From Melastoma dodecandrum (Eukaryota; Streptophyta; Magnoliopsida; Myrtales; Melastomataceae): 64,000 nucleotides of DNA. Under the pieces are notes generated by a model. That model saw nothing but the letters and a program-made list of their open reading frames with translations. It searched no databases and was not told where the DNA came from. Positions 6,536 through 64,000 of this stretch are shown here, one piece after another (position 1 is the stretch's first letter; every line of letters begins with the position of its first letter). Location: assembly GCA_029817715.1 (NCBI GenBank), contig JARUPY010000473.1:2728001-2792000 (forward strand), in the 5' to 3' direction. The translations under genes were made by a program, and so were the position numbers.

Positions 6536-7182
6536 ATGCCGATAAATACTCGAAGTACTATTGGCCGTGAGCCTCAGAATCCCTTAGATGGGGAAGACCA
6601 GGAACTTCCTCCTGGAATGGACTTGGAAGCGCCGGCCCTAGGAGGCCAGGCAGCTACAAACCAGTCCACTTTTGATTCACATGCCCCGTCCGAATTTATT
6701 TCGAGACTAGAGTTCCACAAGGAATTGGGGGATGTGCGTCAGGAGTTGACTGATATGAAGGGTATTCTAATGGATGTCCAAACTCTAATAGGGCGTCTTT
6801 CTGGCCCGAGAGACGAGGAAAGAGTGAGACCTCGTATGAGAGAGGCCCCCTTTAGGGAGTCTACGTTCATGGCAGACGCTCGTCGGACTGCTCAAGGGCC
6901 ACGTAACGTGACTTTTGAGCAATCTGATATAAGGAAGAATGCTCTCTTTGAACCCGGGAATCTGGTTCCCCCTGGCCGACCCTCTTCTTCACGTAATCGA
7001 CCAGCGAATACGTATTGGAATGAGGCAGAGGACTTCCAAGAGGAAACAGATCGGGGGGAGGATTTTATTCCGTCTCGTCGCCCTGGAAAAGAGCCAATGG
7101 TCGACGCAGTTGGAGATCCCTATGAGCCTGGACCCCGGAGTAGTAATCATCGTGAGGAGCCTTCATTTTATGTAAGGGATCC
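6536..7182 (+). pseudogene. Element A gag, N-terminal part
   Basis: An open frame begins with ATG shortly after the PBS and encodes a hydrophilic gag N terminus of about 215 residues with a short coiled-coil-like region (about 60-90). It is interrupted by the solo LTR at 7183. The upstream and downstream gag frames match in phase once the 2038-bp insertion (LTR plus one TSD) is discounted, so the insertion itself is what breaks this part of gag. Confidence 0.75.
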
Positions 7183-9215
7183 TGTTGGATCGTTTATGTA
7201 CACTAAGAGGGGGGTGAATTATTGTTTATCACGTTTTCGCCCTTTCTCGGTGTAAGCGGAAGCGTACTGTATCACAGCAGAGCGTTTCTCAGAATGAGAA
7301 GTACCTTACTGTAACTGTTACGATTTTGTCGAGTAGGTTTTCGTACGAGTGTTGCGCGATCGTAATGGACACAGTGATTTATAGTGGTTCGGCCTTAATT
7401 GACCTACGTCCACTTTCCACCAACAAGGTGATTCCACTATATAAAATAATGGGTGCAAAAAGCCCTTGCACTAGGCGTATGTTCCTCTCACAAAGTGAGA
7501 TTTAGAATCCCGTACAATAGATGATCACTCCTGGCAACGGTCAACTCCTCACACAGTGGACGTCTTCTCGTTTCCAGCAGAATGATGCTTATCCTCAGCA
7601 GTTGGTAGCTCAATGGATTCCACACAGATCGTTGTCGCTTAATATAAACCTGACTTATCAAAGAACACAGACAACGTTATGTTAGAGTATAAATCCTCAC
7701 AGATAATTCCTTACGGTGAAGAATGTATTCTCAGAGAGCATCTCGTTTCTGCTTCACAGCGAAGGATTGCTTCAGCACTTTATCGTTCAACAGAGGATTT
7801 CCACACAGATCTTGTCTCTCCTTAAGATAAGCCTGCACTAGCTTAAGAGACAACCACAAAGTTGAACCACAAAAATCACGAAGATAGGAACCACAAAGAT
7901 CACAAAGAAAACCAGAAAGCCACTTAGAAGGTATCCGTCCTACACTCAGTTCGGACGTGCACGGTTACCACAGCCGTGACTCACTGCACTGCACACCCAG
8001 TGCCTAGGGTGGAATTTTCCGATCCGTTGGCTTCCACGCAACCTGCTTTACTAACCCTCTGTATCAGGCGTTCAAGACTTCTGCACAGCACCCCTATGCT
8101 CGGGAGGAACTCTTTCCACTCCGGCGGCGTTCCCAACTCCTGTTCTACCCTGCAGGCACGAGACTTCTGGCGCGCACCCGCAAGTGCGTGTCTAACTGCT
8201 CAAACTCCGTAGGCTCGAGACTTCCCTGCGAAAAGACACGACAAGAACGGCTTCTTGCCGATGGGTCAGCAACCGGTTACTGAATTCAGAGCAGGTATTC
8301 ACTTAGCTTCCCTCAGACGATTCGCCGGTTGCTCGTTGAACGCACAGAGGACACCTAGTCCCTCTCAGACGATTCAAGGGATCTGACCTCAGCCCCTTGA
8401 CACTCTCACACGCAGCTTGCAAGAGAAAGAACCAGGAGACACTTAGCACCTTCCGCTCTCCGTCGACGCACAAAGCTCACACAGACCACACAGACCACAC
8501 AGACCACACAGATGCACAAAGGCAGAGAGAAAAATGTCGTCCTTGGTCTGATTATAACGGAGAAAGAAGCATAAGGGATGACGTTCGCAATCTTCGAGAT
8601 TTGTTGCCAAAACTGGCAGCGAGGACACAGCAACGGTCTGCTCAACGTTCGCTGTCCCATAGAAGGAAAGATCCAACGGTAACTTCCTTCAATCGTATCA
8701 ATTAGATAATTTATTTCCAATCTATATTATCTAATCATATCTTATTTAATCGATTGTGATGATCAAATATATTTAATTTGATATTTTCTCCCATTACAGC
8801 GAGACGTTGCTGCAGGGAATCAGAAGGATATTTTGTTTCCAAAAATAACAATTGGAAAGATAATCCCAATATATATTGTTGCCTAAGTGCTTAATATAAG
8901 ATCATTAGGCTACGTTAAATGAACCTAGACACTCAGAATAATTATCTGAGATAGATTAAAATAAATCTTGGAATAAATCATGATTATTAAAAATATGTTT
9001 CCATATTTTCAACTTCTATGCGTAATATCACAGTAACAGTGTACTGGAACGCAGTAATATATAGCGGTTACTAGCTGTGGTTCAGCAACGAATTGCTCAA
9101 GCTCATCACTAAGAATGAACACATAACTTGTGAAACATTACTACTGACCACCAGTAAGATGTCGCTTACCATCAGTACCATGTCGCTTAAGTTCATCATC
9201 AAAACCAGGTCAACA
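7183..9215 (-). mobile_element. Solo LTR (Sirevirus-like family) nested in element A gag
   Basis: 2033 bp, bounded by TGTTGG...TCAACA on the + strand and by the 5-bp TSD GATCC (7178-7182 and 9216-9220). Read on the minus strand it starts like element C's LTR (TGTTGaccTGGTTTTGATGATGA) and near its end carries the C-rich CACCCCCCTCTTAGTG motif that precedes the PBS of Sirevirus elements. No internal coding region is present, so it is an LTR left by LTR-LTR recombination. A CAGACCACA microsatellite lies at about 8479-8512. It has no convincing genes. Confidence 0.88.
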
Positions 9216-14042: not shown

Positions 14043-15938
14043 GTGCTATCCGTGTATGATCTACGATTCAAATCCCAACAGTCGGTGAAAGGACAAGCTC
14101 TAGCCGACTTCTTGGTGAGTCACGATCCATCTGTATCAATCGACCAAGAAGAATCCCTTGAGGACATCTGGCAGGGTTGGTTTGATGGATCTTCGGCGAA
14201 ATCCGGCGTAGGTATAGGCCTTCGTATACTTTCGCCACTAGGGAAAGATGTTCGTCTAGCGTATCGTTTGACGGCAACTCACACCAACAATGCGACTGAA
14301 TATGAAGCTTTGATCACGCTCCTGAAGGAACTATTAACCTTGGGAGCCAAGAAAGCCACAGTGATGGGGGACTCTCAACTGGTGATTAACCAGATGAATG
14401 GTACTTCTATATGCCAAGAGAAACTCACACCCTATCATCAAGTCGCCCGCAAGCTAGTCGAGCGATTTGAAGCGATCACTTTCCTCTTTGTAGGTCGAGG
14501 GGAAAATACCATCGCTAACGACTTAGCCCAAAAGGCTTCAGGATACAAGGACAAAAGAGGAAGCGATTGTATCCCAGAAATAGTTTCCCACCTAGTTCCC
14601 CAAAGCGACGCGTTCGCTCTGGACATAATGACAAGCGATAAGGATTGGAGGAAGCCAATCACCGACTTCCTTTCTGACCCAACACAAAAGGCGAGCCAAA
14701 GAATTAAGACTCAAGCTTTGTCGTACACCCTTATAGATGGGGTACTTTACAGAAAGACCAAGGAAGGAGTCCTGTTAAGGTGTGTCGACTTAGACGAAGC
14801 GACCCCAATTATGTTAGAGACTCATCAGGGGTTATGCGGATCTCACCAATCTGGCACCAAAATGTCTTGGACTATCCAAAGACATGGTTTTTACTGGCCA
14901 TCAATGCTAAAGAACTGCATAGAAATGGCTAGGGGATGCCAAGAGTGCCAAAAACATGGTCCGGTGACAAGGGCCCCAGCGTCCGACTTGGTCTCAGTCA
15001 TCAAGCCTTGGCCATTTAGGTCTTGGGCTTTAGATATAATCGGGGAAATCCATCCGCACTCAAGTAAAGGTGACGCCTATGTTCTAGTCGCCACCGATTA
15101 TTTTACTAAATGGGTCGAGGCTCAGGTTTATAAGAAGATCGATCATAAAGAAGTGATCGATTTTCTCAAATCATCCATCATCTATAGATTTGGAATTCCC
15201 CAGAATATTGTAGTGGACAATGGCACCACTTTCAATAATGAGAAAATGCGAGAATTCGCTACGGAGTTTGGTTTCTCAATCACCAACTCAACACCTTATT
15301 ATCCTCAGGCGAATGGACAGGCTGAAGCTACCAATAAACTCATAAAGAACAATATTCAGAAAATGGTTGGTGCAAATCCAAGAGGATGGCACAAACTATT
15401 ACAAGACACTTTGTGGGCTTTAAGGGTTACTAAGAGAGAAAGCACAGGGGAAACCCCTTTTTCACTAGTATATGAGCAAGACGCCGTCCTACCTATTGAG
15501 TTTCGATACAAGTCGCTCAGGGTGACTCACCCTGATTTACAAGACGAGGCAATGTACCTCGCTTTGGAAGAATTAGAGAAGAAGCGACTTGATCTAATAG
15601 ACCGACTCGAGGTGCATAAACAAAGGATTGCTAGGCATTATAACAAAAGGGTTGTCCATAAGCACTTTAAAGTGGACGACTTGGTTTGGAAGATGGTGCT
15701 ACCCCTTAAATCGAAAGACCAAGTTTTGGGTACATGGTCCCCTAATTGGGAAGGTCCATATGAGGTATGTGAAACATACTCATCTAATAGTTATCGGCTT
15801 ATGACGAGAAGTGGGGTCAGACATCCATTAAAGGTTAATGGTAAATATCTCAAACCCTATCGCGCGACTATCTGGGAAGCTCACCATAAAATCCTAAAAC
15901 AAAGGACTCCATTAATTTGGGAAGCGCTTAATTCCTAA
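14043..15938 (+). pseudogene. Element A archaeal-type RNase H and integrase
   Basis: In the same frame as the RT segment. It begins with the tether between the RNase H domains (SVYDLRFKSQQSVKGQALADFL), then the extra archaeal-type RNase H typical of Tat elements (WFDGSSAKSGVGIG, NNATEYEALI, MGDSQLVINQMNG; about residues 45-180). Integrase follows: HHCC zinc-binding region (CIEMARGCQECQKHG) and an rve core with ALDIIGEI, VDNGTTF and QANGQAEATNKLI supplying the D,D,E residues. This segment has no internal break. After the stop at 15938, about 145 bases remain before the antisense gene's 3' end. Confidence 0.9.
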
Positions 15939-51360: not shown

Positions 51361-51569
51361 CAGTCCCTTTACTGGTTAGACCCGGTAAAGCTCCATACTG
51401 CGACATGAAGACTCCTTTTTTGTTTGGACATAAACAAACTAAACTAAATAATTTGATTAATTAATCGAGATAAAATCCAATAATACAATGAAGTATTGTC
51501 CTAAAAAGAATTAAGAAATAAATGGATTGAATTGGAGTACTAAAATGACCATTTTTTTATTTATGTGTT
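51361..51569. other. NUPT start in copy 2 (rps4 5' end and spacer)
   Basis: The rps4 start remnant (minus, to 51406) shows the same internal deletion as copy 1, and is followed by the same rps4-trnT spacer. It is cut by element C at 51570; the rest of this plastid copy should lie beyond the window. Confidence 0.85.
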
Positions 51570-52627
51570 TGTTGGAAAAGGTTTTGATGATGAGCCAGAC
51601 CTCTGTGCCACAGAAGGTCGAACATTCTTGGCTTTGATGATGAGCCTGACCCTCTGTGCTACAGAAGGTCGAACATTCTATTCTACAGAAGCTTCTTATG
51701 TTAAGGGCTTTATGTAAGAATTATTCTTGTAATTAAATGATTAGTTATCAATTATTTGATTACGAAATATATATTATCTGATTAAGATATTCGTCTAATC
51801 AGATTATCATGATTTGATTTTCAAATAATCATATTGGAGATAATATTTCTTGTAGAAGGAAATGTATCTTCTATATATGGAAAGGTTCTATTATTTGGTC
51901 TACAGGCTTCTGTAAGCTTACTTGATCAATATACGAACATTATTTGATTGCAAATCACCACCACCTGTCCAGATACACTCTCACGTGTGTTTTTATCAGG
52001 ATGGAATTGACTTCAAGTCATTTGGAAACAAATCAACGATTGTTTCCACCTGTAGAAGGTTATCAAGCAGAACCTTCTGCGATACCTTCTGTGGTGCACT
52101 ATTCATGGAAAATATATCATGATCTTATTCTGATTTATTTTCTGAATGCTTGCACGTGTATATCATTCTGTTTATTTTGTAAACTAACTTTTAATTTCTT
52201 GTTTTGCAGATTTCGTTTTTATCTTTTCCCATTTAAGTTTTCTTCTTAGCCTTTATGTATAAATAGCCACGCCCTCTCTCCCATGTAAAAAAAAATAAGA
52301 CAATTCTTTTCTCCCATCCCATTCTGTCCAGAGAGAGCGTGTGCTTGAGCTTGCTTTAGTTCTTTCATTCGTTCGAAGTTAGTCACACGAGGAGCACTAC
52401 CGACGGACGGCTGCATCGTTGGTGAAACCTTCTGGGAGAGTGACTCGGGGGCTCGAAGGACTCGGCTGGAAGCTGCAGGAGACGTTGTTGGAAGCGTGTG
52501 TACGTGGGCAACGTGCAGCGGGCCGGAGAGAAGGGCTGAACCTCGGGAGCACAGAAGGTGAGGGACTGACCAGCTTCTGTTGTGTAGAACTCTGTGTGCA
52601 GGAACCTAGGACGGAGGCTGCCGTCTG

Positions 52628-52840
52628 CTTGCGTGGGGTTTGCCACGTGCTTGCGCAGGGTCTGCTGCGTGCTTGCGTAGGGTATGCTACGTGCTTGTGT
52701 GGGGTACGCCACATAGTCGCTATCTCGAGGAGATCGTGCAGGTCGTGTGGAGCCGCCGGAGGGAAAATCCATCCTTGAACAGGGGTTGCTGTTCGCTTGC
52801 GTAGGGTCCGCTACGTGCTCGCGTGGGGTACGCCACGAAG
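52628..52840 (+). repeat. 22-bp-period hairpin array in the element C LTR
   Basis: Four consecutive units (52628-52716) and two more (52795-52838) of the form TTGCGnnGGGTnyGCnn-CG. The stem arms alternate: GTGG/CCAC, GCAG/CTGC, GTAG/CTAC, GTGG/CCAC, then GTAG/CTAC and CGTGG/CCACG. The GGGT part of the loop stays constant. In the 3' LTR one C changes to T, replacing a G-C by a G-T(U) pair. Confidence 0.75.
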
Positions 52841-52910
52841 TCGTTTTCCTTAAGAGGATTGCGCATTTGCTACCTAGTTAGTCACGTTAACGCGTGCAAC
52901 CTCCTGTTGT

Positions 52911-53550
52911 ACAGAATCTTCGGATCTGTATAACCTCCTGTAGAGCAGAACCTTCAGGTCTGAATCTACTTTAGTGCAGAACCTTACGGTCTGTACAACC
53001 CTCTGTAGTACAGAACCCTACGGGTCTGTGCATACATTTTCCTTGTCACTTTTGCTACAGAACCTCACGGTCTGTTCAGTAGAAGGTCGACTACCCTTGG
53101 TACAGAATCTTTCAGATCTGTGCTTTTCATCTAGGTCATTTTCCTATACAGAACCTTCTGTTGTGGATTGACATATTCGACACAGAACCCTCTGTGTTGT
53201 GCCTACCTTCTTCGACACAGAACCCTCTGTGTTGTGCCTACCTTCTTCGACACAGAACCCTCTGTGTTGTGCCTACCTTCTTCGACACAGAACCCTCTGT
53301 GTTGTGCCTACCTTCTTCGACACAGAACCCTCTGTGTTGTGCCTAAGTCTCTTCGACACAGAACCCTCTGGTCTGTGTTGTGCCTTACTCTCTACGATAC
53401 AGAACCTTCTGGTCTGTATTGAGCCTAAGTTACTATAGTACAGAACCTTCGGGTTTGTGCTACATAACGAGCCTCTACGGCACAGAACCTTCTGGTCTGT
53501 GTTCTGCCACTCAAGCCTCTATTGTACAGAACCCTACGAGTTTGCTTTTG
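52911..53550 (+). repeat. Bulged-A hairpin array, LTR section
   Basis: About a dozen imperfect palindromes of the form ACAGA-A-xx..loop..xx'-TCTGT. Examples: 52911-52929 (tip TC/GA), 53010-53029 (CCC/GGG), 53102-53121 (TCT/AGA), and several CC/GG. Each 5' arm has one A more than its partner. Copies occur between the predicted transcription start and the PBS, so they would be in the RNA. Confidence 0.82.
53181..53355 (+). repeat. 35-bp tandem repeat, five copies
   Basis: Units starting at 53181, 53216, 53251, 53286 and 53321 are identical. Each includes ACACAGA-ACCC-TCTGTGT, a simpler version of the bulged hairpin. The 3' LTR copy starts near 63866 with an additional small insertion, so the array is evolving. 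Confidence 0.92.
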
Positions 53551-53826
53551 GTTGCTATCACTTGTGTAATTTGTACTGAGATACATTTGAGTGGAAACCA
53601 TCCAAATATCTGGGTGAAGAGTGGACGTAAGCAATTTGCTGAACCACTATAAAAATCCTTGTGTCCATTAAACAAATTTGCGTACACAATCAAACATTCT
53701 GTCTTACAGAAACTTACAGGCTCTGTTTAACAGAAGCTTTTCATTCCGCTGCGGGGTAAAACGAAAAAGGGTTAAAATCCAATTTTGGAGATTAACACTA
53801 ATTCACCCCCCTCTTAGTGTAACAAT

Positions 53827-53838
53827 TGGTATCAGAGC
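53827..53838 (+). promoter_or_regulatory. Primer-binding site of element C
   Basis: TGGTATCAGAGC, complementary to the 3' end of initiator tRNA-Met, two bases after the LTR. Confidence 0.95.
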
Positions 53839-54726
53839 GGGTTCAACAGAGGCTTAACAGCTTGTTGTAGATCCTTGAAAAGCTCTTTCCAGCTACACAC
53901 TCATCTCCACAGAAGCTCTTAGCTCTGTGACTGGTTCTATTCTGTAGAAGCCTACGCTCTATCAGAATCAACCCGCTACTGCACAGAAGCTTTAAGCTCT
54001 GTGAAAATCTACTGGTTCTATTCTGTAGAAGCCTACGCTCTATCAGAATCAACCCACTACTGCACAGAAGCTTTAAGCTCTGTGAAAATCTACCGGTTCT
54101 ATTCTGTAGAAGCCTACGCTCTATCAGAATCAACCCGCTACTGCACAGAAGCTTTAAGCTCTGTGAAAATCTACTTGGTTCTATTCTGTAGAAGCTTACG
54201 CTCTATCAGAATTTAACCTCTGTTCCACAGAAACACCTTGTTCTGTGAGAAACTATTTGTGTCTTCTCTGTAGAAGCTTTAGCTCTATCAGAAGCTACCT
54301 TCTATTCAACAGAAGCTTGCGCTCTGTTTGAAAACAACATCTGGAATAAGTGTTCTACTCAACAGAGACTGAACTAAACTTTTCCATCCTCCAGAAGCTT
54401 CAAGCTCTGTGAGTATTAAATTGTAATACTGTGTAGAACTCTGCATTCTATCAGAATCTATTCAACAGAAGCGTACGCTCTGTGAATATCACATTTGGCA
54501 TTTTGTTTCTATTCTGCAGAAGCTTGCTGCTCTGCGAGAATTCAACAACTGCCACCTGAAAGAAATTCTCAGTTCTGTCATATTGACACTCGTGCTCTAT
54601 TTAACAGAGGCCTGATTGTTGACTTGACGACTGACTTCTACCCAACAGAAGCTTGCTTGTTTGTTGAGGTTCTATTCGTCAACGTTCTGTTCTATAGAAG
54701 CGTAATACTCTATACGAATCGAACAT
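53839..54726 (+). repeat. Element C leader with bulged-A hairpins and 81-bp repeats
   Basis: Non-coding leader before gag. About fifteen hairpins of the same form as in the LTR, with differing tips: GCT/AGC at 53908-53929, ACA/TGT at 54226-54247, GCG/CGC at 54465-54483; outer pairs vary too (GCAG/CTGC at 54516-54535, TAG/CTA in others). Three to four 81-bp tandem units (53941, 54022, 54103, 54185) each carry two hairpins. Confidence 0.82.
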
Positions 54727-57700
54727 ATGGCTGAAAACTATAATGTGCCTAAACCACATGTTGGGAATCCTCCCATTTTCGATGGTAAGAATTTTTCCTA
54801 CTGGAAAATTCGTATGAGCGCATTTGTTGATGCAATTGACGAAGACTTATGGTCTTATATAGAAGATGGTCCTCCTTCTATACCAGAGAACCAACAATTT
54901 GATCGAGAAGGTCATCCTACACGGGAATACCTTAAGATCAGACGACTCACTAAAACGGCAAAGTATTTGATGTTCAATGCTATGTCAGAAGGTGAATTCG
55001 TCAAAGTTTCAACTTGCACTTCGGGCAAGGAAATCTGGGATAAACTTGTCACCATGTATATTGGGACAGACCAGATAAAAGAAACTAAGGTGAATTTTTT
55101 AATTCACCAATACGAAAACTTCACTATGAAGGCTGATGAATCTGTAGAACAAATGTTCCAGAGACTCAACCTTCTAGTTGATGCCCTAACTCATTTGGGC
55201 AAAACCTATCAAAATTCTGAACTAGTTCGAAAGGTTTTGCGTACTCTACCCAAATCTTGGGAAGCCAAGAAAACGGCTATAGAGGAAGCTAAAGACCTCT
55301 TTATTCTTCGACTAGATCAGTTGATGAGCTCCTTAATCTCGTATGAGATGGAAAGATCCTCTCAACCAGATATAAAGAGAGCACCCGTTGCTTTCAGAGC
55401 ATCAGAAGAACCTACAGAAGGTTCGGATGATGAAGCAGAAGCTGATTCGGATGATGAACTCGCAATGATAGCTAAACGACTTTTGCGGTTCGCCTCCAAA
55501 AAGCGCTTCAATAAGAGAAGCCAAAAACACATGGATCCAAAGTTGGTCACATGCTTTGAATGCAAAAAGAAAGGACACTACAAAACAGAATGTCCTTTAC
55601 TTAAAGAAAAGGAGAAACCTTCTCCTAAATACAAGTTCAAGAAAGCAATAGCTTCTTGGGCAGAACTTGATGATTCTGATGATGAGGAAGCACAAGTGTG
55701 CCTCACAACTCACACAGAAACTCAAAATGAACTTCATACCTGCTTTCAAACAGAAACTGTTGAAAGCGAATGGTATCTGGATAGTGGATGCTCCAGGCAC
55801 ATGACCGGAGACCCATCCAAATTTTCCCAACTGACTCTACAATGTGGAGGGTCGGTTAAATTCGGTGACAATAGCAAAGGCTCTGTCATCGGCAAAGGTA
55901 CCATTGGAAGTTCTGACTCCATGGTCATCGATGAGGTTCTGTTGGTTACAGAACTCAAACATAATTTGCTGAGCATTAGCCAGCTTTGTGACAAAGGTTA
56001 TAAAATAACTTTTGATCAAGACAAGTGTTCCGGAATCCTGAACAATGAAGTTCGCTTCATTGGGACCCGTAAGAGGAATATCTATACCTTGACTCAGAAT
56101 AGCTTCTGTACAACAGAAAGTTGCCTTCTGACAGTCAAAGATGAAAGCCTACTATGGCATAGAAGGTTGGGACACTCCAACTTCAAATTGTTATCCAAGC
56201 TTCTGAAAAAGGATTTGGTTAAGGGATTACCCAATATCCGTTTCGAGCATGACAGCTTCTGTGAAGCATGTTCTCTTGGAAAACAAACTAAATCTTCATT
56301 CAAATCTAAGAATGAAGTTTCTACTTCTCAACCTCTTGAACTTCTACATATGAATCTATTCGGACCTACTAGAGTTCAGAGTGTCGGTGGTAGAAGGTAC
56401 TGTCTAGTTGTAGTTGATGACTACTCTAGATACACGTGGGTTAAATTTCTAACTCACAAAAGCGATGCTTTTGAAACTTTCATTAAGCTAGCTAAGAAAT
56501 TACAAAATGAAACTGGTTCTTCTGTAAAAGCTATAAGAACGGATCATGGTACTGAGTTTGAAAACCATGACTTCGCTACTTTCTGTGACGAACAAGGTAT
56601 CGATCACAATTTTTCTGCTCCTTATACTCCTCAACAGAATGGAGTAGCAGAACGGAAAAATAGAACTCTAATAGACATGGCTAGAACCATGATGTGTGAG
56701 AGCTCTGCTCCACAGAACCTATGGGCAGAAGCTGTTAATACAGCCTGCTACATATCAAACAGGGTTCTACTTAGACCCATACTTGAGAAAACTCCCTATC
56801 AACTATATAGGGGGAGAAAACCGAACATCTCCTATTTCTACTCCTTTGGAAGTCCTTGTTTTATCTTGAGACCTTCTAAGGACAATTTAGGAAAGTTCAA
56901 AGCTAAGACAGATGAGGGCATCTTTCTCGGATACTCTATGTCTAGCAAAGCTTATAGAGTTCTAAACAAAAGAACTTCTACTATAGAGGAGTCTATTAAT
57001 GTAAAAATTAATGACCTTCCTACTATTATTACAAGAGATGTTATATCTCAAGAACCTACAGAAGATGCTGTAGAACCTCTACCCTCTACGAAAGAGAAGG
57101 GTGAACCTTCTGTTCATGAATCTAAAAATGATCTTGAACAAACAAATAATAATTATGAAGAACATTCTCATAATGATCAACAAAGTGATATTAGAGCACC
57201 TGCTCTTTATCAAAGACGTCATCCTATAGACCAAGTTATAGGAGATCTTAACAGAGGCATACAGACTAGAAGTTCTGTAAATGCCTTCTATGAACACTTG
57301 GTTTTTCTATCACAGAAAGAGCCAGAGAATATTGATGAAGCTCTCAACGATCCAGATTGGATACTTGCTATGCAAGAGGAGCTTGAACAATTTGAACGGA
57401 GCAAAGTGTGGTCACTTGTTCCTAAACCTGGTAACCGTTCCATCATTGGGACTAAATGGGTTTTCAGGAACAAACTAAATGAGTCAGGCATTGTTGTGAG
57501 GAACAAGGCTCGGCTCGTTGCAAAAGGGTACTCTCAACAAGAGGGTATCGACTTTGATGAGACGTTTGCTCCTGTAGCTCGTCTAGAGGCAATACGAATG
57601 TTATTAGCCTATGCTTGCTTTAACAACTTTAAGTTGTATCAAATGGACGTAAAAAGTGCATTCCTCAATGGAGAAATCAAGGAAGAGGTCTACGTAAGTC

Positions 57701-58845
57701 AACCTCCTGGTTTCGAGGATCTGCAACACAGAGACTACGTCTATAAACTCTCCAAAGCTCTATATGGCCTTAAACAGGCTCCTAGAGCATGGTATGAGAA
57801 ACTTAGCTCCTTCCTTGTCGAAAAGGGCTACAATAGAGGAAGAGTAGATACTACTCTCTTTCTCAAACACAGAAGCAATCATCTCATTGTTGTCCAGATC
57901 TATGTCGATGACATTATCTTTGGATCAACTGATGAAACGCTCTGTGATGAATTCTCCAAGCTCATGACAAGTGAGTTTGAGATGAGCATGATGGGAGAAC
58001 TTACGTTCTTCCTTGGTTTACAAATTCAGCAATCTGCAGAAGGTACATTCTTACATCAAGAAAAGTACACTAAGCAGCTTCTGAAGAAATTCGGCCTAGA
58101 AGGCACGAAACCTTTGTCTACTCCAATGGGCACAAATACTCAATTGGACAAAGACGAAAACGGTAAAGAAGTGGATAGTAAGCTCTACAGAAGCATGATA
58201 GGTTCTCTTCTGTACCTTACAGCTTCTAGACCAGACATACTATTTAGTGTATGTCTCTGTGCTAGATTTCAATCAGCACCTAAAGAATCTCACATGACTG
58301 CGGTCAAGAGGATCTTTAGATATCTACAGGGTTCTGTAAACCTTGGCATCTGGTATTCTAAGAAATCAAATTTTGATCTCACTGGATACTCCGATGCAGA
58401 CTTCGCAGGAAGTAAAGTGGACAGAAAAAGTACAAGTGGTACTTGTCAGCTCATGGGAAACATGTTGATTTCATGGTTTTCTAAGAAGCAGACTTCTGTT
58501 GCCCTCTCCACTGCAGAAGCTGAGTATATAGCAGCCGCAAGCTGCTGTGCACAACTCCTGTGGATGAAACAACAACTTGAGGACTATGGTCACTCATTTA
58601 CAAAGATACCGATCAAATGTGATAATACTAGTGCTATTAGCCTAGCTAAGAATCCAGTATATCACTCGAGATCGAAGCATATCGAACTCAGACATCACTT
58701 TCTGAGAGATAATGTACAACAGGGTTCTGTTAATGTAGAATACATTAACACCGAACACCAATTGGCTGATATCTTTACTAAACCTCTGGATAAAGAAAAA
58801 TTTTTCTTTTTCAGAAGCGAGTTAGGAATATGCCATCCTATATAA
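54727..58845 (+). CDS. Element C gag-pol polyprotein
   Basis: 1372 residues without a break. Gag (UBN2/retrotran_gag type; [16 protein letters not shown] start) with CCHC knuckle [14 protein letters not shown] (about 276-289); aspartic protease with [14 protein letters not shown] (about 350); gag-pre-integrase ([12 protein letters not shown], about 474); integrase core with [18 protein letters not shown] and AERKNR giving D,D,E (about 561, 604, 641); copia RT (about 910-1100) with [19 protein letters not shown] and YVDDIIFG; RNase H (about 1220-1360) with [16 protein letters not shown] and [11 protein letters not shown], ending near LADIFTKPL. All catalytic residues are present. The domain order is Ty1/copia. 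Functional retrotransposition is plausible. Confidence 0.96.
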
Positions 58846-59688
58846 TGTCTTTCATAAGACAACGAAAAGTTAAGTAAGTACTTCAGAAACTTACTACAGA
58901 AGGTACATAAGTGTACACTCTATTACAGAAGGTGCAAACCTCTGTTTCTACACTACAGAGGGTACACATTCGTACACCTCACTATAGAAGGAAGAATATT
59001 TAGCTTTCTACACAATAGAAGGTTAAATTTCACCATCCATCATATAGAAGGTACACCTTTGTACACTTCAAACAACCGAAGGTATAATCCTTCATTTCAT
59101 CTTTATAGAAGGTAGAAATATCCACCCTCTATTAAACAGAAGGTACAATTGTTTGTACACTTCATTACAGAGAGTTGATTACACTTTCTACCTTATAGAA
59201 GGCCTTACGAAATGCTTACCTAAACTTTAATTTAGGTAACTTTCAAACTAAATCTGGAGATATAATATATCATCCAATAAAAGATTTTGATGAATAAAAT
59301 ATTTATTCTGATCGAAATTTTCTTTGTTAGGAATATTAAAATCCTAATAAACTATACTTGGATACAAATATCCATTATATTTAGCTCTTCGGTGTGGAAG
59401 AAGCTGTAACAGAAGGTGACGATGTCTTTCTTGCCTTAAAAAGCCATTCACCTCACACAATCGAATCAAGGAAATAAAATTTCCTTTCCCCCGTGTTTCT
59501 GATGCATGTCAGTTTGACATGACATCTCAAATAGATCACTTGAGCGGGAAAAATATTTTATTCCCATAAACCGCCTTTAAAACCCACAACCGTCATCCTT
59601 CTTCACACCACCCTCAGATCATCGTATCCCCTTTCTCCTTCTCTCTCATTTTGCCCTAAAACTCCCAGACCTTCGTTCTTCATCACCC
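58846..59688 (+). other. Spacer between gag-pol and the second ORF of element C
   Basis: Non-coding, with repeated ACAGAAGGTAC-type motifs (58880-59200). One forms the bulged hairpin with tip GGT/ACC at 58924-58944. No splice acceptor or promoter is certain; a C-rich stretch lies just before the next ORF. Confidence 0.7.
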
Positions 59689-61494
59689 ATGGCACCCAAG
59701 GCGAAATCCTTGAGGAAAAAGGCTAAGGCCGGAAGAAAGAAGGCTCGCGCCTCTGGATCGGAGAAGCCTGCATCATCTGCGAGCAGGACTCCAACCCCTT
59801 CCTCGCCGGAGAAACCCATCTCTCCTGCGAAGGAACAGACAATTCCTGCTGTTGTTGAGACCCACGATGACATGCAACCCCTCTCCAAGGACAAGGGACT
59901 TGAAAAAGCCCAAATCCAAGTGGAAGAGAAAGCACATGAGGGATCCCTGGTCGCTGCGACAAAGGAACTCCCTGACCCTGGTTCTACTACGGCTGATGAC
60001 ATTGATGCATCAAAGGTCGCCACTCCTGAGGAGAATGCTGAGTCTGATAAGGAGGTGGAAGTGCCCCTTGTCGATGACGCACCAGAGGAACCAGATGAGG
60101 AAGCTCCTGCTCCTGTCATCTCTGTCTCCCCTGACCTCAAGCAGAAAGGCGTTGCCTCTGCTGCACAGAAGGCTACCCAGAAGCCGGCAGCACCCTCTGG
60201 AAAGAAGCTCCTCCATGAGGCCATCAAGTCAGGAGGTGTATCCTCTCGGACTAGGCTGAAACGGAAAGAGCCTGAGATGGTCAGCACCTCACTTGTCAAA
60301 GTGGCTGCCAAGAAAACCAAGTCCCCGGAGAAATCTGTTCCCGAGGACACCTTCGCTGAGGGGCTGGATACCTTCATATTTCCGGTAAACCCTCTGGTCT
60401 CTAAATCGGAGATAGAAACTGTGCTTGCCGATACCAAACTGCCAAAATGCGATGCCGCTGGTCGACAGTTCGCTGCCTTCAAGCGCATTGATTTTAATTG
60501 GTTTAAGGCAAATGATCTTGACATTGCTCCATTGCTTGAGAAAGTTGGTTTGAAAAACTTCTGTGAGACATATGCAGAGGTGGCCGTTTCTCGCCTGAGA
60601 GAGTTCTATGGTAACATTACGTTCCATGAACAAGGACCTCATGTCAAGTTCATCAAAATAGTGATTGAAGGGGTTCCGCTTGTCTTCTCTGCACATGATG
60701 TTAACCAATTGTTTGGCTGTGAGGAATATGACCCACTGTCAGATCTTGGAAAGGAGGAATCCTACAGCATCATCATGGGAGAAAGAGTCCAGTCGGACAA
60801 ATACCTGGAGTCCACAAAGCTGGAACTCAAGACTCGTGTATTGCATCGAGTTGTGCTATTCTGCCTCTTACCAAGGACCGGGAGCATCGACACCATCACC
60901 TCAATTGATGCGTCACTGATGGCTCACATCATGAAGGGAATCCCTTTCAACCTTGGCTTGCTGGTGTTCTCGCACATGAAACGTTGCTGCAATACCACAG
61001 GAAAGGCTCTGCCTTATGGCCAGGTAATTGCCGGCCTTCTTAAGCTTGCCCGTGTTTCTACTGATGCATCTACTTTCCAAGAGAAATGGAAGGTTGGTAC
61101 CTTTGGGCACCAGATCATAGCTAGCATGCATTATGTAAGGAAGGGCTCCTCCTGGACTCTCAAATTGAAGTCACAGGACACCACTGAGGATGATGAGGAT
61201 AAGCCCCTGTCTGCCAGAATGTCCAGAAAGGCTGCTACTGCACCTTCTGCTTCTGCCTCTGCAGCTAAGGCTCCTTCAGCACAGAGACAACCCAAGTCCT
61301 CTGCTGAGATGACCATCCTCCTGGAACAAACTGCTCTCCTCAAGGACCTCCAGCAGAAGGCTGTAGCCAATGAGGAAGATATGCGCGTCCTACGCAAAAT
61401 GGTAGAGAACCTGACTCGCGAGCTGGAACGCCAAGCAAAGGTTATCCGTGATAATCTTGATGCAGTCCCTTCTGAGGAGGAAGAGGAAAAATGA
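59689..61494 (+). CDS. Element C second ORF (env-like position), putative plant transposon protein
   Basis: 601 residues with a good start context (CCCATGG). A Lys/Pro/Glu-rich N terminus (1-190) precedes a folded domain (about 220-470) with FKRIDFNWFKAND, FYGNITFHEQGPHVKFIKI and LHRVVLFCLLPRTGSIDTIT, which resembles the 'putative plant transposon protein' family found in many plant retroelements. A C-terminal coiled coil follows (about 535-590). It stands where Sireviruses carry an env-like ORF, but no signal peptide or membrane segment is visible, so an envelope role is not supported. The function is unknown. The frame is intact. Confidence 0.8.
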   Translation: MAPKAKSLRKKAKAGRKKARASGSEKPASSASRTPTPSSPEKPISPAKEQTIPAVVETHDDMQPLSKDKGLEKAQIQVEEKAHEGSLVAATKELPDPGSTTADDIDASKVATPEENAESDKEVEVPLVDDAPEEPDEEAPAPVISVSPDLKQKGVASAAQKATQKPAAPSGKKLLHEAIKSGGVSSRTRLKRKEPEMVSTSLVKVAAKKTKSPEKSVPEDTFAEGLDTFIFPVNPLVSKSEIETVLADTKLPKCDAAGRQFAAFKRIDFNWFKANDLDIAPLLEKVGLKNFCETYAEVAVSRLREFYGNITFHEQGPHVKFIKIVIEGVPLVFSAHDVNQLFGCEEYDPLSDLGKEESYSIIMGERVQSDKYLESTKLELKTRVLHRVVLFCLLPRTGSIDTITSIDASLMAHIMKGIPFNLGLLVFSHMKRCCNTTGKALPYGQVIAGLLKLARVSTDASTFQEKWKVGTFGHQIIASMHYVRKGSSWTLKLKSQDTTEDDEDKPLSARMSRKAATAPSASASAAKAPSAQRQPKSSAEMTILLEQTALLKDLQQKAVANEEDMRVLRKMVENLTRELERQAKVIRDNLDAVPSEEEEEK

Positions 61495-62252
61495 ACTCTC
61501 TTGATGTTCTCTCTTTTATGCATTTCTAGCTAGACCAAAAACTGATTTCTGTGGTCTTCTAGATTGTAATAAGTGCCAATTTGTTGGACACAACTCCTTT
61601 GCATGAATGGTATTTGAAGTTTCTGTCATACCTTCTGCACCACATTCTGCATGATGGTTTTTGAACCCTCTGTTCTACCCTCTGCAAGAATTAAAACTAC
61701 CCTCTGCACGTTGGTCATGAACATTATGTCATACCTTCTGCAAGAAGCTTACTCTTCTTTTTCAACCTACATTCATCTTCTATTTGATGTTACAAAAAGG
61801 GGGAGAAAATTGTGTTGAGGGGGAGTACCTAGCTCTGTATTGGTTATAGAAAAATCCTTGATTTTCTATAACTCTATGGGTCGTAGAAGGCTATACCGTC
61901 TACGGTATAGAAGCCTATGAGACTGATACAGCTCATAATCGCAACCTTCTGCAGGGAATGCGATTCGTGATCTTTTTAAAGTCACTATTGCTGGGAGTGC
62001 AGAAATGAAATACCATCATTTTTGTCGGGCTAAATACAGAAGCTCCACGCTCTGTATTAATCACAGAAGCCTTTGTGCTCTGTACAACCTTCTTCATAAC
62101 AGAAGCTTCTATGCTCTGTTTCACAGAAACCTTATGGTTCTGTACAAACGCGAGACTGTTACTCTCATCTATTTAGGGGGAGTTAGGGGGAGTTCTTGCA
62201 AACATATTTCCCTCAACGATGAATGTTTTGTCATCATCAAAAAGGGGGAGAT
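61495..62252 (+). other. Element C 3' untranslated region and polypurine tract
   Basis: T- and C-rich stretch, then more hairpins: 62036-62055 (GC/GC tip) and 62123-62143 (ACC/GGT tip). Several GGGGGAG purine runs occur; the last, AAAAAGGGGGAG at 62239-62250, lies two bases before the 3' LTR and is the likely polypurine tract. Confidence 0.8.
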
Positions 62253-64000
62253 TGTTGGAAAAGGTTTTGATGATGAGCCAGACCTCTGTGCCACAGAAGG
62301 TCGAACATTCTTGGCTTTGATGATGAGCCTGACCCTATGTACTACAGAAGGTCGAACATTCTATTCTAGAGAAGCTTCTTATGTTAAGGGCTTTATGTAA
62401 GAATTATTCTTGTAATTAAATGATTAGTTATCAATTATTTAATTACGAAATATATATTATCTGATTAAGATATTCGTCTAATCAGATTATCATGATTTGA
62501 TTTTCAAATAATCATATTGGAGATAATATTTCTTGTAGAAGGAAATGTATCTTCTATATATGGAAAGGTTCTATTATTTGGTCTACAGGCTTCTGTAAGC
62601 TTACTTGATCAATATACGAACATTATTTTATTGCAAATCACCACCACCTGTCCAGATACACTCTCACGTGTGTTTTTATCAGGATGGAATTGACTTCAAG
62701 TCATTTGGAAACAAATCAACGATTGTTTCCACCTGTAGAAGGTTATCAAGCAGAACCTTCTGCGATACCTTCTGTGGTGCACTATTCATGGAAAATATAT
62801 CATGATCTTATTCTGATTTATTTTCTGAATGCTTGCACGTGTATATCATTCTGTTTATTTTGTAAACTAACTTTTAATTTCTTGTTTTGCAGATTTCGTT
62901 TTTATCTTTTCCCATTTAAGTTTTCTTCTTAGCCTTTATGTATAAATAGCCACGCCCTCTCTCCCATGTAAAAAAAAATAAGACAATTCTTTTCTCCCAT
63001 CCCATTCTGTCCAGAGAGAGCGTGTGCTTGAGCTTGCTTTAGTTCTTTCATTCGTTCGAAGTTAGTCACACGAGGAGCACTACCGACGGACGGCTGCATC
63101 GTTGGTGAAACCTTCTGGGAGAGTGACTCGGGGGCTCGAATGACTCGGCTGGAAGCTGCAGGAGACGTTGTTGGAAGCGTGTGTACGTGGACAACGTGCA
63201 GCGGGCCGGAGAGAAGGGCTGAACATCGGGAGCACAGAAGGTGAGGGACTGACCAGCTTCTGTTGTGTAGAACTCTGTGTGCAGGAACCTAGGACGGAGG
63301 CTGCCGTCTGCTTGCGTGGGGTTTGCCACGTGCTTGCGCAGGGTCTGCTGCGTGCTTGCGTAGGGTATGTTACGTGCTTGTGTGGGGTACGCCACATAGT
63401 CGCTATCTCGAGGAGATCGTGCAGGTCGTGTGGAGCCGCCGGAGGGAAAATCCATCCTTGAACAGGGGTTGCTGTTCGCTTGCGTAGGGTCCGCTACGTG
63501 CTCGCGTGGGGTACGCCACGAAGTCGTTTTCCTTAAGAGGATTGTGCATTTGCTACCTAGTTAGTCACGTTAACGCGTGCAACCTCCTGTTGTACAGAAT
63601 CTTCGGATCTGTATAACCACCTGTAGAGCAGAACCTTCAGGTCTGAATCTACTTTAGTGCAGAACCTTACGGTCTGTACAACCCTCTGTAGTACAGAACC
63701 CTACGGGTCTGTGCATACATTTTCCTTGTCACTTTTGCTACAGAACCTCACGGTCTGTTCAGTAGAAGGTCGACTACCCTTGGTACAGAATCTTTCAGAT
63801 CTGTGCTTTTCATCTAGGTCATTTTCCTATACAGAACCTTCTGTTGTGGATTGACATATTCGACACAGAACCCTCTGTAACCCTCTGTGTTGTGCCTACC
63901 TTCTTCGACACAGAACCCTCTGTGTTGTGCCTACCTTCTTCGACACAGAACCCTCTGTGTTGTGCCTACCTTCTTCGACACAGAACCCTCTGTGTTGTGC
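62253..64000 (+). repeat. 3' LTR of element C, cut by the window end
   Basis: Matches 51570 onward through the start of the 35-bp repeats, with about a dozen substitutions and one insertion of about a dozen bases near 63878. The remaining 500 bases and the TSD (expected GTGTT, as at 51565-51569) lie outside. Confidence 0.95.

Follow-up and report, generated by a model that had tools for sequence, protein, structure and literature searches.

Palindromic repeats are among the described features of Sireviruses, a group of plant Ty1/copia retrotransposons. The RM boxes of Bousios et al. 2010 (PMC2829016, available in part) are palindromes present in multiple, at least eight, copies in the long terminal repeats (LTRs) and before env; a CGG-CCG core is given for 12 of 13 elements, one described family, Tnd-1, being without it, and 92% of the LTR copies lie in the upper half of the LTR, before the TATA box, with formation of CpG islands. 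The LTR palindromes of maize Sireviruses (Bousios et al. 2016, as cited in the available part of PMC10760457) occur in clusters with strong predicted RNA folding and many small RNAs; their consensus, CACCGGACNNNGTCCGGTG, contains no bulge, and their microRNA-like structure lies mostly in the LTR. Here we describe an element in a 64,000-nt stretch of Melastoma dodecandrum (contig JARUPY010000473.1, positions 2,728,001 to 2,792,000; hereafter the window), which by its sequence is an env-type Sirevirus and whose palindromes differ from both: they read ACAGA/TCTGT with an extra A instead of CGG-CCG, the array at 52907-53549 follows the TATA box at 52258 rather than preceding it, further copies stand in the leader and in linker2, and gag-pol is structured as well. 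As with the RM boxes, copies also cluster just upstream of the env-like frame, namely 11 units at 58896-59210 before the open reading frame (ORF) starting at 59689; U3 holds a few related palindromes. Our leading reading, to which we tentatively give slightly less than an even chance, is that the genomic RNA is selected for local folding along most of its length, that the bulged-A array is the amplified noncoding part of this structure, and that capture or condensation by Gag is its likeliest use. Folding is predicted throughout. The parts of the element that bear on this reading are:

52290..52859, + strand: R/U5a, the unstructured part of R/U5 (Z -0.2)
52907..53549, + strand: R/U5b hairpin array, 17 units spaced 31-47 nt
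52685..54726, + strand: ATG-free stretch of 2042 nt, up to the gag start codon
53905..54717, + strand: leader hairpin array with an 81-nt tandem unit
54727..58845, + strand: gag-pol ORF, 1372 aa, open
58896..59210, + strand: linker1 array, 11 AYAGAAGG-like units spaced 28-31 nt, upstream of the env-like ORF
59689..61494, + strand: env-like ORF of 601 aa with weak predicted structure (Pfam Transposase_32)
62032..62147, + strand: linker2, four bulged-A hairpins, three with tips GC/GC and one with ACC/GGT

A first reading of the letters alone, here called the original prediction, had claimed dozens of hairpins of the form ACAGA-A-tip, loop, tip'-TCTGT in this Sirevirus-type element, with an extra A at a constant place in the 5' arm. 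The six hairpins it quoted are present with their tips, except that the copy at 54465 fits GC/GC with loop GTAC better than GCG/CGC with a 2-nt loop, and the G-T pairs it saw near 53440 are there too. Its count is borne out by a family scan of 52860-53824, the leader and the linkers, in which G-U and A-C mismatches were treated alike: 34 copies were found on the + strand, 30 of them distinct, and in 26 of these 30 both tip positions form Watson-Crick pairs. The minus strand of the same regions gave 16 matches, with both tip positions paired in none (0/16); elsewhere the scan matched 6 times in gag-pol, 3 times in env, and 13 (+) and 12 (-) times in the remaining 51.5 kb. Four members (53708, 54561, 59046, 61885) are doubtful, and the presence of the bulged A in 30/30 copies is partly built in, since the scan demands a near-match to CAGAA; which A of the pair bulges is ambiguous (AGAA faces TCT). 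A freer scan accepted every hairpin whose 5' arm contains a single unpaired base, whatever that base is. It covered 52290-53824, the leader and the linkers as well as gag-pol, env and the sequence outside the element, and counts different registers of a single hairpin separately. It returned 71 anchor matches in 52290-53824, the leader and the linkers, with A as the bulged base in 65 of them. Such hairpins are densest in the leader (29.9 per kb) and linker2 (26.4); the 5' LTR has 11.1, gag-pol 10.0, linker1 9.5 and env 6.1 per kb, and the 51.6 kb beyond the element 2.1. On the point of a fixed bulged A, these 65 of 71 one-base bulges stand beside the tipless copies, which carry no such A, and gag-pol, where the 32 distinct starts are mixed (A 13, T 10, G 8, C 1).

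The arrays differ in how regular they are. R/U5b comprises ten units with bulged A and intact tip, one partly decayed unit (53528) and six tipless ones (53150 and the 35-nt repeats at 53184-53324), which are without bulge because the tip is absent. The leader array alternates between the types CACAGA-A...TCTGTG and TTCTGTAGA-A...TCTATCAGAA, while linker1 holds a single perfect bulged-A hairpin (58925-58945, GCAA loop). Across four regions, 43 of 88 AGA[AG] cores lack a downstream partner under the pairing rule used, and tandem units of 35, 41 and 81 nt account for part of the copy number. The loops at 52913, 53442 and 58927 read C(UUCG)G twice and GCAA once, which we take to be known stable tetraloop types, the latter of the GNRA type.

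The tips vary and nevertheless remain complementary, as the original prediction had also stated. To test this without circularity, we let the outer stem alone decide which partner a copy has and scored the tip afterwards: with duplicates collapsed (n=41), 62 of 82 tip positions are Watson-Crick pairs versus 34.7 after shuffling (0/20000 shuffles; p<5e-5), and when each tip type is represented by a single hairpin, 19 of 38 positions pair versus 10.2 (p=0.002). The signal recurs in R/U5 (p=0.002), the leader (p=0.013) and the linkers (p=0.001), and by eye the first tip pair shows all four types, C-G, G-C, U-A and A-U. These permutation statistics ignore kinship among the copies, so that they overstate independence, the copies being related by tandem duplication. 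A covariance-model check had been proposed and could be made within this one element. On a 13-row alignment (A2), picked from a 28-row alignment (A1) for its 8-nt interior, the covariation score is 0.352 versus 0.169 shuffled (0/500) and at most 0.145 when slid, and 12 cells are changed on both sides versus 4.0 shuffled (0/500); two of the five measures taken do not exceed shuffles and are given below. The covariance model built from these rows (R1) recovers its own training rows by construction; its 33 window matches (E up to 0.05), 32 of them on the + strand, all lie inside the element and include the 13 training rows; six further matches repeat a training row exactly, of which four stand in the 3' LTR and two in tandem. 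Six R1 matches lie in the 3' LTR. A search of 51500-64000 against Rfam found nothing at the gathering score and three sub-threshold matches (E 0.43-0.5).

Predicted folding extends into the coding region. We compared gag-pol with synonymous shuffles in 67 windows. Per 120 nt the native sequence folds at -29.17 kcal/mol and the shuffles at -21.33 kcal/mol; Z is -19.9 for a set of 30 shuffles and -18.4 for a different set of 80, and each of the 67 windows lies below its own shuffle mean. The same test gave -4.2 for env, -3.6 and -2.6 for gypsy frames of the window, -7.5 for a third frame, and -1.2, -1.1 and -0.2 for others; the frame with -7.5, the strongest of these controls, is a neighbour at 14043-15938. 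Coding sequences of other copia elements, treated below as relatives L001 to L005, gave -3.9 (L001), +1.1 and -2.3 (L002), -0.6 (L003) and -1.7 (L004), and the short fragment L005 gave -3.8, which may place it nearer to the present element than the value implies, because Z rises with length. Against dinucleotide shuffles, mean z is -2.23 in gag-pol, -3.18 in R/U5b, -2.62 in the leader, -3.28 in linker1 and -1.99 in linker2. The mean minimum folding energy difference (MFED; 350-nt fragments, 12 dinucleotide shuffles, 13 of 19 regions, with L002b, L004, the L005 env, two frames of the window and the minus strand of gag-pol left out) is 30.1% for gag-pol (19 fragments, 20.0-53.6%), 36.8% for R/U5b, 35.8% for the leader, 58.3% for linker1, 20.8% for linker2 and 6.5% for env; the neighbour frames reach 9.1, 9.6 and 14.9%, and the relatives 12.2% (L001), 0.3% (L002a), -0.7% (L003) and 16.2% (L005, 4 fragments). 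The energy excess by which genome-scale ordered RNA structure (GORS) is recognized is thus present in gag-pol, R/U5b, the leader, the linkers and U3, weak in env and absent from R/U5a, the latter two being the least structured parts of the element RNA. In gag-pol it is reached with pairs at most 50 nt apart, in a fold of 111 domains with a median span of 32 nt and a median gap of 4 nt. The predicted folding of gag-pol goes well beyond what the encoded protein calls for, so that the form of the RNA may itself serve a purpose.

The codons of gag-pol also carry the hairpin arms themselves. The 5-mers most enriched over synonymous shuffles are CAGAA (23 vs 9.6), TTCTG (19 vs 7.3), ACAGA and TCTGT; among 6-mers ACAGAA, CAGAAG and TTCTGT rank highest. 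These enriched words are the arms of the noncoding hairpins. CAGAA occurs near TTCTG somewhat more often than at random (12/23 vs 7.5, p=0.04). CAGAA-TTCTG pairing as the cause of gag-pol structure was tested and found unsupported, windows without the motif being equally structured. Since this is so, and since only part of the motifs are fully paired, motif spread and folding may have separate causes.

That the arrays lie in RNA is suggested by the start codons. From the presumed transcription start near 52290 to gag there is 1 ATG in 2437 nt versus 27.3 expected, while CAT occurs 26 times; the last 2042 nt before gag contain 0 ATG versus 23.7 expected and 22 CAT. Depletion begins after 52283, the U3 just upstream holds 16 ATG versus 16.8 expected, and the 2043-nt step that ends at the gag ATG is the longest ATG gap on the + strand of the window. 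This gap is best explained by ribosomes scanning a very long leader, and it is very likely that the arrays form part of the leader RNA. A single upstream ATG, at 52684 with a 10-codon frame, sits in a four-copy 22-bp tandem repeat at 52626-52712, within the unstructured part of R/U5. The two widest ATG-free intervals of the minus strand, 7741-8572 and 7166-7741, fall on the 3' part of another Sirevirus LTR. This second LTR, at about 9215-7200 on that strand, belongs to a different family, has a polyC integrase signal and is apparently solo, no primer site following it; its 3' 1372 nt hold 1 ATG versus 20.1 expected, and 8599-7200 is unstructured (Z +0.8). Both Sirevirus LTRs carry AGTGGACGTA...GAACCACTATAAA near their 3' ends (53620-53653, and on the minus strand near 7413); judged by eye, this is a hairpin with the same outer arms in both LTRs and different inner arms (AGCAATTTGCT vs GGTCAATTAAGGCC).

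A preference for folding of the + strand over its complement, relative to shuffles, is likewise found in some parts: R/U5b (Z -5.6), gag-pol (-4.2), linker1 (-3.1) and slightly U3 (-2.1). No such asymmetry is seen in R/U5a (-0.7), env (-0.7) or the second LTR (-0.4 and +0.8), and that of gag-pol drops to -1.5 when G-U pairs are disallowed. Within the hairpin family, G-U pairs outnumber A-C mismatches by 13 to 4 (p=0.025), three of the 13 looking like one inherited change and three standing in doubtful members; strict gag-pol stems show 5 versus 0.

Several observations weigh against our reading and belong together. The evidence comes from one element in the window, the hairpin copies are mutually related, and the 35-nt repeats carry neither tip nor bulge. 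On the 13-row alignment neither the pairs changed on both sides (3 vs 2.5; 255/500 shuffles) nor the further pair types (10 vs 8.6; 115/500) exceed shuffles. Within the same RNA, R/U5a is unstructured and env weakly structured, and U3, which is not part of the 5' leader, is strongly structured too (Z -7.7). The leader and linker2 show no strand asymmetry (-0.2 and -0.3), and a general G-U excess fails, G-U not exceeding A-C in wider stem sets. In the local gag-pol fold full pairing is reached by only 5 of 23 CAGAA and 9 of 19 TTCTG, and windows lacking CAGAA are no less structured (mean z -2.23) than windows containing it (-2.12).

Weighing these points, we retain the reading that local folding itself is what is selected, and envisage the following course. 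Folding of gag-pol would be achieved through synonymous codon choice; in R/U5, the leader and the linkers an ACAGA-A-tip...tip'-TCTGT module would have been amplified by tandem duplication, its arms then drifting while staying paired. Because the leader would be read by scanning ribosomes, ATG would be excluded and the hairpins kept short, and the element's own Gag, with its CCHC zinc knuckle, may capture and condense the full-length RNA multivalently, protection from small-RNA silencing being a side benefit or a rival function. The original interpretation is thereby supported in part: the conserved RNA fold is kept, and the bulged A as an operator-like protein site is no more than a candidate; with gag-pol also strongly structured and its bulges of mixed type, the structure itself seems selected. 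In a bolder form, possible though rather doubtful, short hairpins would follow one another without a break along the genomic RNA, except in env and at the beginning of R/U5, and gag-pol would exceed in structure the highest mean quoted for a vertebrate RNA virus; the ACAGAA/TCTGT bulged-A module, present in the noncoding arrays and via synonymous codons in gag-pol, would serve Gag as a code for packaging or condensation, distributed along the RNA, and the 2-kb leader would be ATG-free for ribosome passage.

If the function is not condensation or packaging by Gag, it may be shielding from silencing, the main rival, which we judge somewhat unlikely: dense local structure would bar small-RNA-guided Argonaute, RNA-dependent RNA polymerase and decay enzymes, with no need for a specific ligand. 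Structure that spans coding and noncoding parts with varied stems, and equally the windows without CAGAA, would suit it. Genome-scale ordered structure is proposed to hide animal viruses from sensors, and structured transcripts evade sensing in animal cells (PMC3950689). Shielding would not require a single shared bulged-A module, however, and as sole cause it would hardly leave R/U5a and largely env open; moreover, the structured maize palindromes draw small RNAs rather than repel them (PMC10760457). Less probable still is regulation at the DNA level, in which the palindromes are repeated sites for host DNA-binding proteins, like RM boxes or enhancers, and the hairpins are incidental. CAGAA and TTCTG are enriched in both orientations, the relatives L005 and L002 carry perfect palindromes in the post-pol linker, and some copies read AGAAC/CTTCT, in the manner of heat-shock half-sites. 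A heat-shock-element reading of the leader was set aside, the copies (AGAAGCTT...) breaking the GAA/TTC spacing (by eye). Palindromic repeats near the promoter and before env in Sirevirus LTRs, and an enhancer reported within the untranslated leader of Drosophila copia (a title cited in PMC2829016), speak for DNA as well. What tells against it is that the paired tip with extra A occurs on the + strand (26/30) and not on the minus strand (0/16), that no fixed site is kept because the tips vary freely, that gag-pol structure is independent of the motif, and that folding in R/U5b, linker1 and gag-pol is biased towards the + strand.

A purely mutational origin, in which template switching during reverse transcription makes and mends quasi-palindromes and tandem duplication multiplies them with no selection for folding, appears improbable to us. 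Tandem duplication is plain, and copying one arm from the other yields compensatory changes without selection; such copying, however, would erase the extra A, which is kept in 30/30 copies (partly required by the scan) and in 65/71 of the freer scan. Nor would it lead one to expect strand asymmetry, stems within an open frame of 1372 aa, or an effect size unmatched in the control frames of the window and in other copia elements. Translation control by internal ribosome entry or by shunting across the structured leader is the least credible of these alternatives: long structured leaders of plant pararetroviruses do use shunting (PMC5902531, available in part), but both routes would tolerate upstream ATGs, so that 0 in 2042 nt versus 23.7 expected points to plain scanning, and linker2, a long way from the leader, has hairpins too.

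The remaining parts of the element are:

51570..53824, + strand: 5' LTR, 2255 bp, TGTTGG...TAACA, ends read from the sequence
52258..52266, + strand: TATA box TATAAATAG
53827..53838, + strand: primer binding site TGGTATCAGAGC, 3' of the CA/ATTGG junction
61799..62250, + strand: five GGGGGAG polypurine tracts before the 3' LTR (61799, 61819, 62176, 62186, 62244)
62253..64000, + strand: 3' LTR, running past the window end, in which the first R/U5b hairpins are repeated

Its assignment as a Sirevirus, already made in the original prediction, agrees with the junction TAACA-ATTGG-TATCAGAGC at 53820-53838, that is, CA/ATTGG and the TATCAGAGC primer site, the combination by which Sireviruses are defined in the available part of PMC2829016, where a zinc knuckle in Gag is also stated. 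In addition, several identical polypurine tracts precede the 3' LTR, a polyC-rich integrase signal CACCCCCCTCTTAG stands at 53804 at the LTR 3' end, and one ORF holds Retrotran_gag_2, Pol_BBD, gag_pre-integrs, rve and RVT_2 in copia order, with a CCHC zinc knuckle in gag. Transposase_32, a putative plant transposon protein, was the sole family matched by the env-like ORF in a Pfam search. The nearest named gag homologue is from Melastoma candidum (82% identity), and the LTRs are 98.8% identical over the 1749 aligned columns compared, which suggests a fairly young copy.

Searches for relatives by reverse transcriptase (RT) or gag found none in viral contigs; four plasmid records with distant RT (30-37% identity) were set aside. 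Among genome contigs six loci were matched, which look like plant or other eukaryotic DNA inside bacterial assemblies; the hairpin model reaches no E below 0.39 in any of them. L001, L002 (Labilibacter sediminis), L003 and L005 (contigs of metagenome-assembled genomes) are copia elements in records with bacterial labels and therefore probably plant or other eukaryotic contamination. The nearest, fragment L005, shares 67% RT identity; L005 (1270-1365) and L002 (6870-6990) have perfect palindromic repeats without bulge in the linker after pol (GGGTCGACCC; CTTCTGTTGNTCAGAAG).

The original prediction had rightly stated that palindromic repeats are known in Sirevirus LTRs and held the bulged-A family to be undescribed. 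This stands within the literature searched, which included few subscription papers and no preprints, was seen in part, and reports no bulged-A leader array, ATG-free Sirevirus leader or plant-retrotransposon GORS; it needs the qualification that folding palindromic LTR arrays are known in maize Sireviruses. The available main text of PMC2829016 does not use 'hairpin', 'bulge' or 'RNA structure', has 'leader' once, in a reference, and applies 'secondary structure' to a repeat at the gag/pol boundary and a repeat of the polypurine tract. Where that literature treats Sirevirus LTR palindromes as promoter elements or silencing triggers, those described here covary, very likely belong to an RNA leader and adjoin gag-pol, in which synonymous sites seem given over to folding. 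Should relatives bear this out, genome-wide RNA architecture would enter plant retrotransposon biology, together with a testable code for packaging or evasion of silencing, and the ATG gap and the synonymous-shuffle Z would be two cheap sequence tests for any LTR element.

Phage coat-protein operators are short hairpins; in their 5' arm, separated from the loop by a few pairs, one A is left unpaired. The bulged-A copies described here have this form but occur in dozens of copies with variable loops of 3-6 nt, and their ligand is only a candidate. Viral genomes of the GORS type likewise contain many consecutive coding stem-loops, measured as an energy excess over shuffles, here found in a plant retrotransposon. 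According to the available part of PMC7642675, MFED is about 15% in SARS-CoV-2, with single regions peaking above 50%, and 7.5-10.7% in hepatitis C virus, and the highest genome mean quoted among vertebrate RNA viruses is 23.4%; the gag-pol mean of about 30% lies above these, in a comparison that is approximate because that study used its own shuffling program and finer steps. The genomic RNAs of Ty1, Ty3 and HIV-1 (PMC11381356, available in part) combine a structured 5' end with dispersed structured regions, as here, but are by probing mosaics, of which up to 30% (Ty) or about 40% (HIV-1) is highly structured, whereas in the present element every window of gag-pol is predicted to be more stable than its shuffle mean.
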